A stretch of DNA of 64,000 bases from Saksenaea vasiformis B4078 (lineage: Eukaryota; Mucoromycota; Mucoromycetes; Mucorales; Saksenaeaceae): the NCBI GenBank assembly GCA_000697055.1, contig JNDT01001931.1, forward strand, positions 62,001-126,000, read 5' to 3'. Shown here piece after piece: positions 47,914 to 56,979 of the stretch. The notes under the pieces are model-generated. The model had not been told where the DNA came from and ran no database searches. It saw only the letters and a program-made list of their open reading frames with translations. A program made the position numbers and the translations under genes. Within the stretch, counting starts at the first letter, position 1. The number at the start of each line of letters is the position of its first letter.

Positions 47914-49888
47914 AGCATTGCAAGAGTACAAAACTATAATTGACTACACTATTAAAAAAATGATGGTTTCTTTTTTTACCTTTTCCTTTACTTTGGAACA
48001 AGATCGTTTTATGGATAGTGTAAGGCTCATTCTAAAAGAGAAGGCGTCAGAGGGTGCGCAAATGAAACAAAAAACGCGAAAGAAAACGCGGCAGTGTGCA
48101 TGGTAACTGTATGCACGCTTAACGAAAAAAGCGTCTCCAGCGCAAACGCGCCTATGTCCACCAAACTTTGGATGGTATCTTGGGTGTTTCGGATTGGCAT
48201 CCTCTGTGTATTATTTGATGAATATCGCGTTCTCAACATAAAACACTGAGCACCTATAATCATTTGTTAATCTCTACAGACCATACTTCACTAGGCGCTT
48301 CCTGAAATGACATTCAGCTATGCATGATGTATTCCATATTTCAAAAAGTGGAAACAAGATTCACTCACCTGAATAATAACAACAGGGTCTTCCATTTCTT
48401 TTCCCTTTTGATTTTTTTAAGAGGTCTAGCATCAGGTGTCGGTTACGTAGCGCAGCGATGTAGCTCGTTCCCGAAAAACCGAACGGGAGCTGCAATCCGT
48501 CCTCTCGACTGCTGTACGTTTGCTCCATACTTTTATCGACGACATTCCTCGTCTTGACAGCGTTCCATAGCATAGTCCTGCTTGTAAGTAAACTCTAGTA
48601 TAAACTTATTTTTGCTCATGTTGCATGGTCCCAAGTTCTTAGTAAAGGGATAGCCAATATGGTTAGATAATCTGAATTAGATTGCCACACGAACAAGCTT
48701 GCCTTATGATCGACGGCAGAATACAGCTTCATTTCTGGTGGATGAAGTAGAGCGCTGTGTACGTCCAGCCTTGCTGTGTAGTGGGACTGATTGAAATGAC
48801 CTTCTTATAGCTACTATGATGTCCTGAGTCGGTCTTACTACCAGACAACAAGGACTATGATTAGAATAAAAGGATGTACACCATTGTCAAACTACGTTTA
48901 CCAAGCAGAATATTCCATAAATATACTTGTCAATGAGATATCTTTATTTGATTCAATGCAATAAAAGCAAATGGAAAAGTACTAGAAGCATCTTCTCCAA
49001 CTTTAACTTTCAAGCAGATTTTCATTGTTATGTATGGTAGAAGAGGTAATAGCAGCTATAGCTTTTCGAAGCGGCACCATGATGCTACATTCTGACTGCA
49101 CGAAATGCAGTGTCAGTTATTGCACGTCATTTTCTCACTGTTGTCACAGTTTGACACGGGGCAGCAATATTATGAAAGGAGGGAAGGGGTGATGACAACG
49201 AACGTGAAGTGTCATATTGCATGAAGCATGTTTAATTTCTATTTTGAGATGGGAGGTGAGCAAGTTGGCCAGTAAAAGGTGATCTTGATGAGGAAACAAA
49301 AATACGCATCGATACGATGTTAATCTTGTTATCCTACTTTCTACTGGGGGTTGAGAAAGAGATTAGACTTATAGTTAAACCAATATAAAGAGCAAACATT
49401 GAAGTTCTTCTAGAGTTACCAATGGATATGACACAGGAATCAAAAATGACTTCCCCGAGATCAACGGCGTGTGCGTACGTTTCTGTCTCTGCCTATCTGT
49501 CCCTCTCTATCCCTCCCTGTCTCTCTATGCGCGCGTATAAGTATCAGTGAGTCTCTGAGTGCGTGCGTGTTAAGGAAAGAAATAACTGAATGATCATGCT
49601 CAACCCGATTATGCCGAAAAAAAAAAAGGTTTGCACAGCATCATTCCTTTGTACAATACTTTCTTTTGCTCTTGAATTCTCATTCTTTTCTTTTTTTTCA
49701 TATCTCATTTCTTCTCTGTTGTATACTTTGGTCTGTTACGTATACTCTTGGTTTTCATAAATCCTTTTTTAAGAAAAAGAGACAAACGCCAGCTCATTTA
49801 TTATTGTTCTCTCTTTGTAGTATAACGCCCCTGACGTTTGTGTCCATTTTGTATTTACTTAAAAAACTTATATTGTATTATTGGGGTT
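47914..49888. other. Intergenic between SEC23 and H2C2 gene
   Basis: 2 kb without coding signal. 49480-49570 is CT-rich with CTCTC/GCGCGT runs, and 49660-49850 is a pyrimidine-rich leader upstream of the ATG at 49889. Confidence 0.5.
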
Positions 49889-50827
49889 ATGAATCCACTT
49901 CAAATCCAGCAACTGGGTGTTAGTTATCGCCATAACAACAAACCGACTAGTGCCGCTGCTGCCATAGCTGCCGCTGCCGCTGCCACTGCCGCTGCATCCA
50001 GTAGTCAGGTTCAACAGCGACTTTATCCTCAGTTGGTCAATGATCGCGATCAGTACCCATCTAACAAAGATTTTGATGCCATTGTGGAAGAATACCTACA
50101 AAACCTATCATCAAAAAAACGTGATAAAGCACTTGTCGACCAACATCGTTACTCTCTTATTTTACAAGTACTCAAGGATCCCAGGAATACCGCTATCTCC
50201 ACCGCGCAGTTCCGCTTCTGGGTGAAAAAAATGTTCCAACTAGCACCTATCGACAATTGTGATATCGTTTGTCACGATAATAAACCAGTGGCTATGCGTG
50301 AACAGATCTACGGCATTCTGGTACGTGCACACAGGGAAGCACATCATGGCGGAAGAGACAAAACGTCAGCTTTGGTAAATCTCTGAATGCAAAGAGGAAA
50401 AAAAAAGAGGAAGCTAATGTACTGTCTCCATTCCAACTCCATCTGACAGGTGCGTCGACGGTATTCATGGATTCCTAAAGAGTTGATCGCTCGTTTTGTT
50501 CGTCACTGTCCATTTTGCATTTCGCGCCGGAACGGCTGCCAAAGTCCGATTACTCAAACCCAGCCGTCTTTTCAGTCGATTGATCTCAAGGTCATGGATT
50601 TTGATGCAAAGGACAGGCACGAGAATGCATGCACCAATAATTATGATAATCATACTGTACCCTGGAAAGACGATGGACATTCCTGCACTGCTTCATCGCT
50701 GGCTGCTGCCGCCGTTGCCACTAGTGCCGCTGCCGTTGCCGTTGCTCTGTCACCATCTTCTCCTTTTGAGTGCTCTTGGTTTTATTACTCTCAGCCATCG
50801 TATTCAGAGAACGGTTTTTATTATTAA
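49889..50827 (+). CDS. Integrase-type H2C2 zinc-finger protein (retroelement-derived, host-like)
   Basis: Exons 49889-50374 and 50450-50827 (intron 75 nt, phase 0), 287 aa. The core is an HHCC zinc-binding domain like the N-terminal domain of Ty3/gypsy integrases: ILVRAHREAHHGGRDKTSAL joined to VRRRYSWIPKELIARFVRHCPFCISRR. No reverse transcriptase or DDE core is present, and two poly-Ala tracts encoded by GCT/GCC runs flank the domain, as in domesticated GIN1-like genes of Mucoromycota. A preceding alpha-helical part (DFDAIVEEYLQNLSSKKRDK) is shared by that group as far as I recall. Function unknown; DNA or protein binding is likely. Confidence 0.8.
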
Positions 50828-51403
50828 AAATAATTTGCCACAATCATCAAAAGCATTCACCTTTCTTTGTTCGAGAGGAGGGTGCAGCCAAACTTTTGAT
50901 GCTTGTGGAACCTTGCGATCAACGCGTTGGACGACTTGACAAAAGTTACTAGATAAACATCGCGTATTGTCGATTATCCAAGGAGCCTTGGAAAACAGCT
51001 ATAATCATAGCAACTAATCGATGTACCTACTTTTCATTTTGGAATAGACAAATAGAATATTAAAAAGATAAAAAAAATTAGTAAATAGCAAGGCTAGCCT
51101 CAAAACCTGAACCGTTACTCAATTGATTGACACCCCTTGCATTCAGCTTCTGTACCTATTGATCTCTGTCTTTAGAGAGATAAGCATCCCTTGATCGCGC
51201 GTTGAAAACGAGAACGGAGCCATGATACTGTCAATAGAGTGAACTTCGGCGAGCAAAATAGAAAAGCACAGTCATTTGCCGGTAGCGCTATGGAAAATGT
51301 GTTCCTGCTTGACTATTTTTCCTTAACAAAGAAATAGTCTATCGAGAACTGAGGTAGTACGGGACCCTGATGGGCTATTTTTCTCTTAAGGAAAAGTAGT
51401 CAA
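50828..51403. other. Intergenic with imperfect inverted repeat
   Basis: Near 51310-51410, CTATTTTTCCTTAACAAAGAAATAGTC and CTATTTTTCTCTTAAGGAAAAGTAG form an imperfect inverted repeat with GACTATTTT / AGTAGTC ends, close to the 3' end of the Fanzor-like gene. No coding signal. Confidence 0.4.
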
Positions 51404-54400
51404 TCAGAAACCCATTTTCCATAGTGTAGTTATCCACTGCAAAGGTCTTGAAGCGATATTGCGTGCACGGATCTGTCGTGATGCTAACTGCCGCAACGTT
51501 TGCTTTCTCAAGCGATGCCTATTAGCACAGACATAATTTATCCTGTCTACACAATCAAACAAAGCACATGTTGTAATGCAAAATGAAGGAAAAAGGCTTG
51601 TCTTCGCATGTAGCGTGCAATAGTTCATCGTTTTCGTCGGGACAGTATTGCCGCTTTCGCTTGTTCGGGCGCTTGCTTAGGTACTTTTTTCTAATGAACG
51701 ATTTCTAATGTTTAGACTTTCGCTGTGTTTGGTCGCATATTATACATACTTGTGGTTGCAAATGCGTAGGTTAGGATCACGCAGCTGGATAGTATCGTTA
51801 TGACAGACGCTACAGACCCTGCTGGTCTTATACTCATCTACACATATCACCGGGCATCGCCGAGCCAAGACTTTGCCAAACGTCTACATAGAATAGCAAT
51901 TAAAAATTCAATATCAACATGAATCAAATGCTTGCCTTGACTGGCAGAGGACCATACGCCGTATACGTGCTGGTATGTAGGTCCGCGTCAAACATAAGCG
52001 ATTAGAACCCGGCGCTGGTCCCGCTGGCAGCCTCCCTGATTTCGCCGGTGCTGCCGGCGTCTTCGTTTTCGGTGCCTCTTGTTCTCTTTGTGTACATGTT
52101 GGACAGGTGGCTATTCGCATAACGATTAATGCACTCGTACGATACGTTGATGGGCTTACCAAACTTGTATTAGGATAGAAGCCTGCAGCTTGATCCGCAA
52201 TAACGTCCATTGTCATTTTTCTCGCAGATTCCAGGAGCCCACGTCTTTCTCTGTGACGATAATGACGATTGTATTCCTCAGTCCTAGCAAAATCCTTTTA
52301 GAACGGACACATACGAGCGATATATATTCAGAAAGTACCTATTTTTCTCCGCAAATTGCGTCGAAAGATAGCTCTGAAACCCTAACAGTGAAGCCTGCGT
52401 GCTTGGGTGCTCCGCCAGACGATCATACACCTGCTGCGTATTCGCAGCTAAGCGGTTCTTCCGCTCCATTTGGAGACTCCAGGTGAATTTGGAGCTGTTC
52501 CTGGAAATTGATATGGTTATCACACCATGACGAACGTCATCTTGCTATATTACTGGTAATAATCATTCGTGACCGTAAACATATGGTGCTGCCTTGTTTG
52601 CCGATCACGTAAGTTATCCGCCGTGTCAACAGTAGTTACCAGGGATCGGATGCCTATATGATATATAGCTATCACTGAATTTTTTCAAGAGCGGGAGACA
52701 TACCTGGGTTAATGCCCACTATGCGGGTCAATCCGGGGTCTAGGTCTTGTGCTGCAGTGAAACCTGTGGGCTCCTTGTTTAAGTGGTATAAACCACGTTG
52801 GACAACAGACATGTCTCTATTTCGGGGCAAGAATTGGAAGTCTCTTCTGGATGAAGGGTAGGAAGCTGAGACGCAGATATCCCATTAGTTGCTTCATAAT
52901 GTGGCAAACATTAACCATACCTCGATTCGGCCTACGAGACTTGAACCTAACGGCCGCCATCACGCCGCCTGTTTCGAAACCGTAGTCAAACTCGAATTGT
53001 GGAAGCTGTTCATTGTTTTCTCCTAAGCAAAGAATGATGAGATCAACATTTACATGTGATCGATTATAAGCAAACCTTGCGAACGCCAACGCCTAGGCAT
53101 GACGCGGTCTATACAAAAAATCTCTTCCCAAAGCTGCTCACGGTAAACTGCGCTCCAGTGCGCACTGGCGAAAACACGGGGATTGTGTAAGGGAGGCTTT
53201 TGGAAGGCTAGTTAATTTTCATTTACTTTTTTGTAGATCACTTACGAACAGATGGTCCGGGAGGTCCACAGCAACACCTTGCAAAATCCAGTATAGGATC
53301 GGGTGGGAAACCGGCACATATCCTATAGCGTGCATGTTAGGCCATAATACCTAAGTAGAGGCTTTCGCTCATTCAACCATACCTATTTGATTTTTTGCTA
53401 ACGGTAGTAGCGACCAGCCTTCTCCATCGTACTTGTTCGATTGTTTAAGCAGCTGGAAAGAAAATTGTAGCATGGAGAGAAGTAGACTTTCCTTCTGCTC
53501 ATCGCTTAAATCGCCTGAAATGTCCGTGTTTCCGAAGGTTTCCGTGTAAGTCCACAGAAACTCGCTATAAGACATGGAGCAGTTAGTGATACACAATCAC
53601 GAAATGGTTAACAATCATATAAGACCTACGTATAGAATGCTTCGAACTCTGCAACCGCATCAGTACCAAACGCTGGCCATGCGTTATGGTCGAAATTGTT
53701 CTGTGCCAAGACTGCGTTCGTGCAGCGAGTTGCTAGAATTACAAATATCACATTAGCTACTGTAGAGGAAATGAATAAGATATAATACCTAGGCCATTCA
53801 CATTGTTCTTCTCATGTAGACTGGGAGATTTGTCGTGACATGTTCAAAGGTGTCTACGAAGGCGAAAAAACGTGAATATACAACTGCCTTTTTGCCTCTT
53901 TGATATTAAGCGCTCACTGGCAGTTATTTTCCCTGCAAACGAAAAAGCCAGGTCTCTTAAGACGTGCGTCAGTGTCGGGAGAGAAGAGTTTTCTAATAAT
54001 ACATGAATATCCTTAAAAGGCGTAAGTCCTTTTATGTACCTTCTGATGTTTGTGGATCGAATCTGGACAAATTAAACACGGTCTCAAAAGTTTCTCTCAG
54101 GTCAACGCACCATCGATAGGCGGACTACAAAGTATACAGAAGACAAAGAATTTCAGCCTGCTGATTGATCAATTATAGTAACATCATACAAAAGCTACTC
54201 TGACATTGGTGCCGGGATCTCGCTGCCCATCCTGAAAGCAGCAGTGAAGAAATATTCCTTGAAAATCGGAGGGAAAAGTTCTATCTGGCCCTCGAGCCAA
54301 CGGCGAATGTGTAGGTTCACGAGAAACATTGCACACTGGCAAGCAGCGGCGTATTCTTCCGCAAGTGCACGAAAAGCAACCTACATCAATGAATTTAGCT

Positions 54401-54580
54401 TTTGTCCAGAGAAAAACAAGGTACACATGCCCTCAGGTGCTTATAGTCCTCTTGCAGGAAATTGGACAGCTTTAGTTTACGCACAAACGAATAATCACGA
54501 CCAGGCAGGTCGGATAGAGGGCTATGCTGATATCCATATCGTCTCCGACGGCGAGGTGGTTCCTGAACCTCCTCCTCCAT
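51404..54580 (-). CDS. Fanzor-like (eukaryotic TnpB-type) gene, intron-rich, possibly decayed
   Basis: Start MEEEVQEPPRRRRR at 54580. Successive exons on the minus strand give DYSFVRKLKLSNFLQEDYKHLR, VAFRALAEEYAAACQCAMFL then VNLHIRRWLE, a Fanzor-type helical N-region, WCVDLRETFETVFNLSRFD, NNFDHNAWPAFGTDAVAEFE, LWTYTETFGNTDISGDLSDE, GYVPVSHPILYWILQGVAVD and FEFDYGFETGGVMAAVRFKS. Next come RuvC-I (LTRIVGINPG, about 52690-52720), a helical block (FTWSLQMERKNRLAANTQQV), DADLHTSTYTAYGPLPVK, and RuvC-II with the zinc finger (VICVDEYKTSRVCSVCH, about 51800-51865). Fanzors are RNA-guided nucleases of eukaryotic transposons. RuvC-I has Asn for the catalytic Asp. The RuvC-III motif is not clear (RQLASRQIRARNI near 51480 is the candidate). 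Some junctions near 54180 could not be resolved. Confidence 0.72.
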
Positions 54581-55200
54581 AATAAAGGCAAAAGCGACAA
54601 AGTAAGAGAATGAGGACTGAAATGTGGTGGTCGTCCCTATCTTATAGTTCACAATACAAAGAAATCACTGTTGTTGATCTATCACCAGATCTCTTAAAAA
54701 CCATACCTAATCCGACCGGCATCTTTTGGAGCCATAGCTTGTGCAACAGCAAAACCCCTAAACCTTATTGATCTCCAAGCCACGAAATTTGATATGGCTC
54801 CTAAGAAAAGGATCTATCACACCGTAGATGTTCAATCTATTGCACCATAGATCAGACATGTTTAGGTCACGTTTTATTCGAGTCAGACATCAGCACGTCT
54901 CTTCATCTGCAAACCAACCTTCACATGAAATTAGTACCAGAGAAAACGGGTAGAACTGCTTTGAGACCGTTTACACAGATTTATTCAAAACCTCCATGTT
55001 GTCTTTTCCAACTGTATCTAAGTATTATATCTATACTAACTGAAACTAGACAGGCGCTGTTTTTCTTCTCGATAATAAATTATGATGATTTGACTGGCAG
55101 TTTCCTTTCTAGGCATAAATCCGTTATTCATTGTCTAAGACCACCAGAAACATGAGTGATGAGAAATTTGGAGACATACTTTGGGACCTACGGATTACGT
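54581..55200. other. Unassigned spacer between Fanzor-like and transposase-like genes
   Basis: No coherent exon recognised on either strand; it separates the last recognisable piece of the transposase-like gene from the Fanzor-like start. Confidence 0.4.
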
Positions 55201-55204
55201 TTAG

Positions 55205-56384
55205 TCAAACAAAGTAGAGATAGCTTACTATCTTACGCACTCTATGACTATGATCAGTGTTGAGAATTGTACTCCTATGCGGATAATGGTCCATCGAACG
55301 CAATTCCACGCAATTATTGTACATATTCGTTAAACACTTCGCGCTTGGAAATGTGCCGTCGTAACCGTTTCTATCTCCAAACGAGGAAAACACTAGATTT
55401 GCTATCCTCATTATATTAGAAACTCCACCCAGACTCCCCGCTGTTCTTCTGTCACAATTCGTTTGGAATTACGTGGGAAACGACGTTAGCTAAGCCATAA
55501 CAGGGAAAATGTCGTGTCGAGTAGTACAAGGCCCAAATAAAGAGATGCGTACTGCACGGCACACTCATTAGAAAACCAGCTAACAAATATCAGCAAGATA
55601 TATCGTAATAGGTGATGATGCTCACCGATGGTTCGAGAAAATGGACCAGGTCCTATTCCGGAATGGAAGCAGCTACGCATCATATTCATCAACTCTCGAG
55701 ATACTGCTCCGCGGTGAGAAAGTATCGCAGGAAATTCTTCGGATAAGGGGCGCGGTAGATTTTTGATAATTTCATTGTCATGTCCCAAGTATGATCGACT
55801 GCACCGTTTGCATTGACATCTATACGACATGATATAGAAATTGTCGTGCACATCGAAAAATTGCAATTGGTCTGTCTGCCCAGCCACGTACGCGAAAACC
55901 TCTAGAGCATTGAGGGCACTTGAAATCCTTGATGAGCAGATGGACTAGCCACACAAATACGCGAGGATAGTAAAGCGGTGAAGGGTCCAATCTTGTTTGG
56001 CCACGGAGAGCAAAATACGGACTAGGTGGTGTCACCAAATAACTCTGATTCTGATAGCACTTGGGAATCTTTTTGGGCGATTGTTCCATTTCATGCTTTA
56101 GTCTATCTCGCAAGCTAGCCAGGTACTGAACGTGTAGCGATCCATCTGACGCCTCGTCATTACTGTTGTCTTCGCTTGGAGGAAGCCCCTCTGGATTTGA
56201 TTGCGTTTCTTCCGTGGAAGCCAATTCCATTCTATTGAATTCATCAGACGAGCCGGCTGTTAACCGTTAGCATTAATGTATATTTCACGAGAGTTCAACA
56301 GCAATACGTACACATAGTGAGACCAGATGTTGAAGCCGAAGGTGTTGGATCTTGCTGAGATGGCTGGCTTTGATTGCAATCCAT
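55205..56384 (-). pseudogene. Transposase-like zinc-ribbon protein (DUF6729-like), frameshifted and truncated
   Basis: ATG at 56384 (MDCNQSQPSQQDPTPS); intron 1 starts GTACGT near 56321 and joins to SGSSDEFNRMELAST. The conserved part reads LYYPRVFVWLVHLLIKDF, CPQCSRGFRVRGWADRP, then after a one-base frame change LQFFDVHDNFYIMSYRCQCK, CSRSYLGHDNEIIKNLPRPL, SEEFPAILSHRGAVSRELMN and MMRSCFHSGIGPGPFS. A later exon gives FGDRNGYDGTFPSAKCLTNM and ILNTDHSHRV. I recall this order from fungal DUF6729/transposase-derived proteins in which an RNase H-like core continues; here nothing recognisable follows. The one-base shift near 55875 is too short to be an intron, so the gene is probably broken. Confidence 0.55.
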
Positions 56385-56514
56385 TATAACTATAAAAAAA
56401 TTTATAGATTAGAGTCAAAAGGTGGACGCTATATATAAGCTATTTCTATGAGGAACCAAAAGCATTTGCTTGTCCCCAAAAAGGACCGATTGTTTAGTCA
56501 ACAAATGTTTAATA

Positions 56515-56614
56515 TCCGCACTTTGTTTTATCATATTTTATTCGCCAGCGCGGAAGGTCCGCACTTTGTTCTAAAGATATGATTGGGGTAGCGGGTACTC
56601 CGCACTTTGTTCTA
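56515..56614 (+). promoter_or_regulatory. Three copies of TCCGCACTTTGTTYTA
   Basis: Copies at 56515-56530 (TTTTA version), 56558-56573 and 56599-56614, same orientation, spaced 43 and 41 bp (about four helical turns). They lie in the 680-bp region between the divergent transposase-like gene (-) and the cyclin-like gene (+). Could be binding sites for one factor; function not known. Confidence 0.6.
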
Positions 56615-56979
56615 GAGCTGTCATTCGCTTAAATTGGTCCAGGCATATTGCCAGCCGTCCAATCAATGAATCCGGAGTTTTAAAAGACTCCCTCTACTAC
56701 GAAATCAGAGCTGTTCCCTATGACGCACTTAGCGAAACTCAAGTCCAGTGATAGAGCGATACTGACTAATGCCTGCTATTTTTAATAGAAGTCTCTAGAT
56801 AAATGATCATCCTACTAGAACGGACATTGGACGATGTGAACCTAGCTATCATCGGAGACATGCCATTTACGAAAATGATACCGGCGAGTTATTTATCCGT
56901 GATGTGTTCATGAGGCTCTGACAGCATCTGTCTAAAACGGGAGCGGAGCCGGATCAACTTGATCTCCGTGATGTCGCAC

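Follow-up and report, generated by a model that had tools for sequence, protein, structure and literature searches.

TldRs are nuclease-dead, TnpB-derived regulators of bacteria. The accessible text of PMC13418256 describes them as RNA-guided transcription factors. Fanzors carried by fungal DNA transposons have been described as well, and in the available sections of Bao and Jurka (2013; PMC3627910), Fanzor1 is recorded from Rhizopus, Mucor, and Phycomyces, some of the elements being said to encode no transposase. According to the same sections, a brown-alga Fanzor1 element of IS4 type has 8-bp TSDs, and the TSDs given in section 12 for Mucorales elements are 9 bp (MuDr-like), 11 to 12 bp, or putatively 6 bp. 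As for the protein, the portion of PMC10711439 at hand presents a Glu six residues before the zinc-finger CxxC as a Fanzor arrangement (DPG/alternative-Glu) and counts hAT as one of the transposases that accompany Fanzor1.

Here, we analyzed a Fanzor-like locus in a 64,000-nucleotide stretch of the Saksenaea vasiformis genome (the window, meaning this whole stretch), for which a preliminary description had reported a RuvC-I motif changed from GIDPG to GINPG and had offered two readings, a nuclease dead by decay or an inactive RNA-guided DNA-binding protein that has been kept. Our data indicated that the locus is almost certainly a dead, 3′-truncated copy of a DNA transposon family carrying a DUF6729 ORF and a multi-exon Fanzor. 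The parent family is of a kind already described in the available sections of PMC3627910 (Bao and Jurka 2013), a Fanzor in a fungal DNA transposon, and it resembles the Fanzor1 elements there in having no recognized transposase and in its Mucorales host. In contrast to the section 12 elements, its TSDs are 8 bp long, its GGCT...AGCC ends are imperfect, and it carries a DUF6729 ORF, and the window copy itself, unlike the elements in those sections, is dead and truncated. A Fanzor gene of several exons, carried by a transposon that makes 8-bp TSDs in a Mucorales host, would fit Fanzor1 as portrayed there, and a Fanzor2 label for the window gene is doubtful. With the DPG/alternative-Glu clade, so far as it is set out in the portion of PMC10711439 at hand, the sister copies share the RuvC-I DPG and the Glu six residues before the zinc finger, whereas the window copy reads NPG and is without RuvC-III. 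The likeness to TldRs is that an active-site residue has been lost in a TnpB relative; however, the window frame is broken (three frameshifts and a 3′ truncation), the Asn variant is a singleton (1 of 77 loci), and, of the features by which TldRs are recognized, neither an intact ORF nor an inactive site conserved among relatives was found.

Transposon family and sister copies

A DNA search of the S. vasiformis genome (38.7 Mb, 666 contigs) with window positions 51200 to 54700, using a method that skips very common words, returned 80 matches, many of which were the MITE at 51.3 kb. Seven near-full-length sister copies (L029 to L035) were 92.5 to 97.2% identical to the window copy downstream of a 55-bp gap and 83 to 97% identical in the upstream blocks. 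A further sister, L036, carries an internal deletion across RuvC-I, the diverged sister L039 is 69% identical downstream of the same gap, and others are partial. Alignment of the locus to other genomic copies holds over about 5 kb, and the Fanzor gene is therefore not a chance resemblance.

The sister elements start 5′ with GGCTGGCAG... and finish 3′ with ...CCGTCTGTGAGCC, apart from L032, the 3′ end of which is altered and was not recognized; the terminal repeats of the parent element are short. Target duplications were compared in the flanks of eight copies (L029 to L031, L033 to L036, and L041). The 8-bp flanks were identical in L031, L034, L035, and L036 and, by eye, in L033, whose 5′ end is rearranged; they agreed at 7 of 8 bp in L029, and no agreement was seen in L030 or in L041, the latter with a shortened 5′ end. 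Given the short imperfect terminal repeats and the 8-bp target duplications, the parent is a DNA transposon, and these sequence features argue for a cut-and-paste element. In L033, L036, and L038, the element boundary shows ACCAATTTGAGCG, the motif of the 5′ terminus, in a shortened or repeated form, as if rearranged upon insertion.

The DUF6729 ORF lies upstream of the Fanzor in the window copy and at sister loci. DUF6729 matches in the genome numbered 26, and 12 of them (the window included) fall at the contigs and positions of the Fanzor transposon family. A literature search of incomplete coverage found no paper on DUF6729, and its pairing with Fanzor may be unreported so far; a Fanzor family paired with this ORF in an element with 8-bp TSDs is one small yield of the analysis.

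Table 1. Coordinates of features in the window
Feature	Positions	Strand	Basis or remark
3′-truncated copy of Fanzor-carrying DNA transposon	51603..56656	-	Sister homology; 5′ terminus GGCTGGCAATATG at 56656, right terminus missing
DUF6729 (PF20499) fragment, first ORF of the element	55486..55944	-	Pfam score of 39.9 bits (cut-off 27); family also present where other copies lie
Fanzor pseudogene, remnant of a multi-exon gene	51603..54580	-	Exon blocks placed through L030, three frameshifts, 3′ truncation
Private 4-bp deletion, exon block VAFR...	54226..54227	-	Bases present in L029 to L036 and in diverged L039
Private 55-bp deletion, exon block VDTFEH...	53806..53807	-	Bases present in L029 to L036 and L039 (L031 without one base there)
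Private 1-bp insertion, exon block VLIAYG...	51992..51992	-	Comparison with sisters; frame then VLIAYV and stop
Exon block coding for VDEYKTS (alternative RuvC-II Glu) and CSVC (first CxxC of the zinc finger)	51749..51883	-	Compare DPG/alternative-Glu fingerprint, available portion of PMC10711439
CACTA-like MITE, nearly palindromic	51286..51428	.	Inverted repeat; TAG on both flanks; unrelated to the Fanzor copy

Gene layout and the RuvC-I column

The gene had been placed at 51404 to 54580. Its start, the ATG at 54580 on the minus strand, held, but the coding part stops at 51603, where homology to the long sisters ends; a gene end at 51404 was rejected because the tail beyond is unrelated to that of the sisters. 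RuvC-I occupies 52716 to 52702 (GGC ATT AAC CCA GGT, with the Asn codon AAC at 52710 to 52708) in an exon reading ...LDPGLTRIVGINPG, a 50-nt GT-AG intron (52703 to 52654) follows, and IRSLVTTVDT comes after it. The RuvC-II/zinc-finger block contains VDEYKTSRVCSVC and reads ...PVICVDEYKTSRVCSVC..., the Glu of VDEYKTS lying six residues ahead of the first Cys of the CxxC. Thus, RuvC-I, VDEYKTS, and CSVC do stand on the minus strand in the order described, with splice signals between them, but the reading is interrupted by three frameshifts with nearby stops, and the zinc finger said to follow RuvC-II keeps its first CxxC but misses the second (CPQC), along with RuvC-III.

Pfam PF07282 matched the RuvC-II/zinc-finger exon with an E value of 1.6e-4 and 22.2 bits, under the 26.3-bit cut-off. 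Across the genome, a profile search in which 150 of 388 candidates were scored gave at least 137 PF07282 matches at E ≤ 0.001, and the window copy is absent among the 137 listed. The S. vasiformis genome is rich in Fanzor copies. Sequence matching of the short RuvC-II/zinc-finger piece against solved structures yielded nothing significant (best E, 0.85), and the homologue search outside the genome returned only two proteins at E ≤ 0.001, from Rhizopus microsporus and Circinella minor.

The reported change of GIDPG to GINPG, with codon AAC, was confirmed: GIDPG (GAC) is present in all eight sisters that cover RuvC-I (L029 to L035 and L039), GINPG occurs in the window copy alone, and the window motif carries two private base changes, at 52714 and 52710. 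A protein search of the genome with the 46-residue RuvC-I exon, which reaches exons similar enough to the family and not more distant Fanzors, gave 81 matches, 77 of which reach the Asp column, with Asp in 76 and Asn in one, the window. For this survey, 70 of the 81 matches were fetched and nine were already known (the eight sisters and the window); the last two both end before the column, as do two fetched ones (L089 and L115). Asp is also found in both outside homologues (IIGIDPG in R. microsporus and LVYIDPG in C. minor). GINPG is therefore a singleton, not a conserved variant. What remains as a second small yield is a genome with at least 77 Fanzor RuvC-I exon matches at the column, among which Asp is otherwise invariant. 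Two other RuvC-I exons, L076 and L098, keep the Asp with changed neighbors (GIDHD and GLDAG), which are further signs of drift among the copies.

For the rest of the active site, the Glu six residues ahead of the zinc finger is VDEYNTSRVCSVC in L030, and GAG or GAA stands there in the other sisters shown. In the 3′ stretch of L032, CPQC (the second CxxC) is followed by RuvC-III NRDVNAGRN, and the RuvC-III core GACGTTAA is common to 10 aligned copies, one of which reads GACGTCAA. The active site of the parent family protein is the usual Fanzor one, with GIDPG in RuvC-I, the alternative Glu in RuvC-II, and NRDVNA in RuvC-III, and, by homology, its working members would be guided nucleases.

Frameshifts, truncation, and private substitutions

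Compared with the seven near-full-length sisters from 54582 to 51604, the window copy has three private indels, all in exon blocks and none a multiple of three (Table 1). These indel counts and the substitution counts below leave out L036 for its internal RuvC-I deletion, L039, taken solely as an outgroup, and L037, L038, and L040 to L046, which are partial or short. After the 4-bp deletion at 54227, the spliced reading runs ...DPPIDGALT to a stop in the next exon block; PMSE followed by a stop was considered here and rejected, as it spans the exon-intron border and removal of the intron carries the stop into the next block, so that the lesion stands. Following the 55-bp deletion at 53807, the frame reads MRRTM and stops. 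An apparent frameshift at about 52884, seen against L030 alone, was discarded, the odd extra base belonging to L030 and lying in an apparent intron. No single family frame joins the N-terminal part, RuvC-I, and RuvC-II in the window copy.

Sister homology stops at 51603-51604, and ten sisters extend 421 to 437 bp past this break to a common 3′ terminus. When the sister 3′ tail was searched across the whole window, only two chance-level matches of 17 to 18 bases were found, and between 51603 and the MITE no other genome match was listed in the DNA search, which skips very common words. Given the homology break at 51603 and the absence of the tail from the window, the second CxxC, RuvC-III, and the element 3′ end are gone. 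The 5′ flank, GATTGGAC, does not recur downstream of the break; elsewhere in the window it occurs once, within the element. The MAFFT alignment beyond 51603, including the last exon-block row of the window, was forced and was not used.

Counted over exon blocks modeled by hand through the sister copy L030, private substitutions of the window copy amounted to 20 at 1769 exon sites (14 nonsynonymous and 6 synonymous) and 14 at 980 other sites, small numbers in which there appeared to be no sign of protein-level constraint. The corresponding nonsynonymous-to-synonymous ratios of the sisters spanned a wide range, with 6:10 (L029) and 26:12 (L032) as its extremes, the others being 13:9 (L030), 15:16 (L031), 8:12 (L033), 30:53 (L034), and 35:65 (L035); stop changes were flagged among the private changes of L030 (one) and L033 (two). 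The values of L034 and L035, which share much history and are not independent, would fit a gene under selection in the past of the family. At least one frameshift in exon blocks was present in four of the seven sisters and none in three. Decay is thus common in the family, and the window copy is a typical dead copy, not an exceptional one. Its private substitution rate of 1.2% falls within the 1.0 to 2.2% of five sisters compared alike, and no particular cause is thus called for to explain the changes in the motif.

In the window copy, the element is missing its right end past 51603, and to this are added the 4-bp deletion, the 55-bp deletion, the 1-bp insertion, and 20 private exon substitutions, with the RuvC-I change from Asp to Asn one among the latter. 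We infer that the Asn substitution would have arisen in a copy already unconstrained. As the Asn is one of several window-only defects, the locus has the look of ordinary decay and not of a DNA-binding protein put to new use. Of the two readings offered earlier, death by decay is supported by the private frameshifts, by the missing 3′ end and RuvC-III, and by the Asp in the eight sisters and 68 other fetched matches.

Competing explanations and the 51.3-kb repeat

Assembly error could account for single-base differences and 1-bp indels. It is nevertheless very improbable that faulty sequencing or assembly produced the Asn and the smallest indels in what is otherwise an ordinary transposon copy: private 1-bp indels do occur in the sisters too, and the two motif changes lie near each other, but errors of base calling would not explain gaps of the size of the 55-bp deletion and the 3′ break, and the private substitution rate is within that of the sisters.

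A nuclease-dead Fanzor kept as a TldR-like, RNA-guided DNA-binding repressor, in which the Asn abolishes cutting and guided binding is retained, would account for an Asp-to-Asn change at the catalytic site, a change that such a protein could show, and a large part of the sequence can still be recognized, RuvC-II and the first CxxC among it. We regard this explanation as barely credible, since the frame is broken three times, the RuvC-III end and half of the zinc finger are lost, the Asn is confined to 1 of 77 loci, and the private substitutions, though few, give no sign of constraint. The earlier proposal of a kept inactive binder is thus not upheld, there being no joined frame and no element 3′ end.

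The region assigned to its RNA, near 51.3 kb, also proved to be something else. It is an inverted repeat whose 139-bp core has 22 further listed copies in the genome, at 89 to 100% identity; 20 copies fetched with 40-bp flanks have CACTA...TAGTG ends, one being changed at one end, and 17 of the 20 have identical 3-bp flanks. In the window copy of this repeat, one end has CG in place of CA, a change at its second base. By these ends and 3-bp TSDs, the family resembles CACTA (EnSpm) MITEs, and we take it to be one. Such a dispersed MITE, unrelated to the Fanzor copy, says nothing of a guide RNA, and the suggested omega-type RNA was dropped. The sole Rfam match, MIR1509, lies in the MITE and is far below threshold (22.3 bits, where the cut-off is 87; E, 0.94). 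The element 3′ ends of ten sisters, when aligned and folded, gave 63 predicted pairs, 2 of which had both sides changed, in copies too alike for this comparison.

That the remnant is transcribed and spliced around its lesions into a truncated protein without RuvC-III, or into a guide-like RNA, either of which would interfere with active sisters, is an idea to which we attach next to no weight.

The analysis removes a tempting false lead, in that a lone catalytic change in a repeat copy points to a domesticated dead nuclease only where the sisters, the frame, and the constraint are in agreement.

On the plus strand of the window, two ORF pieces at 49835 to 50386 and 50447 to 50827 read HREAHHGGRDKT ... 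CPFC. They resemble an integrase zinc-binding region, possibly as parts of an integrase-derived gene, and Pfam gave nothing above a cut-off for them.
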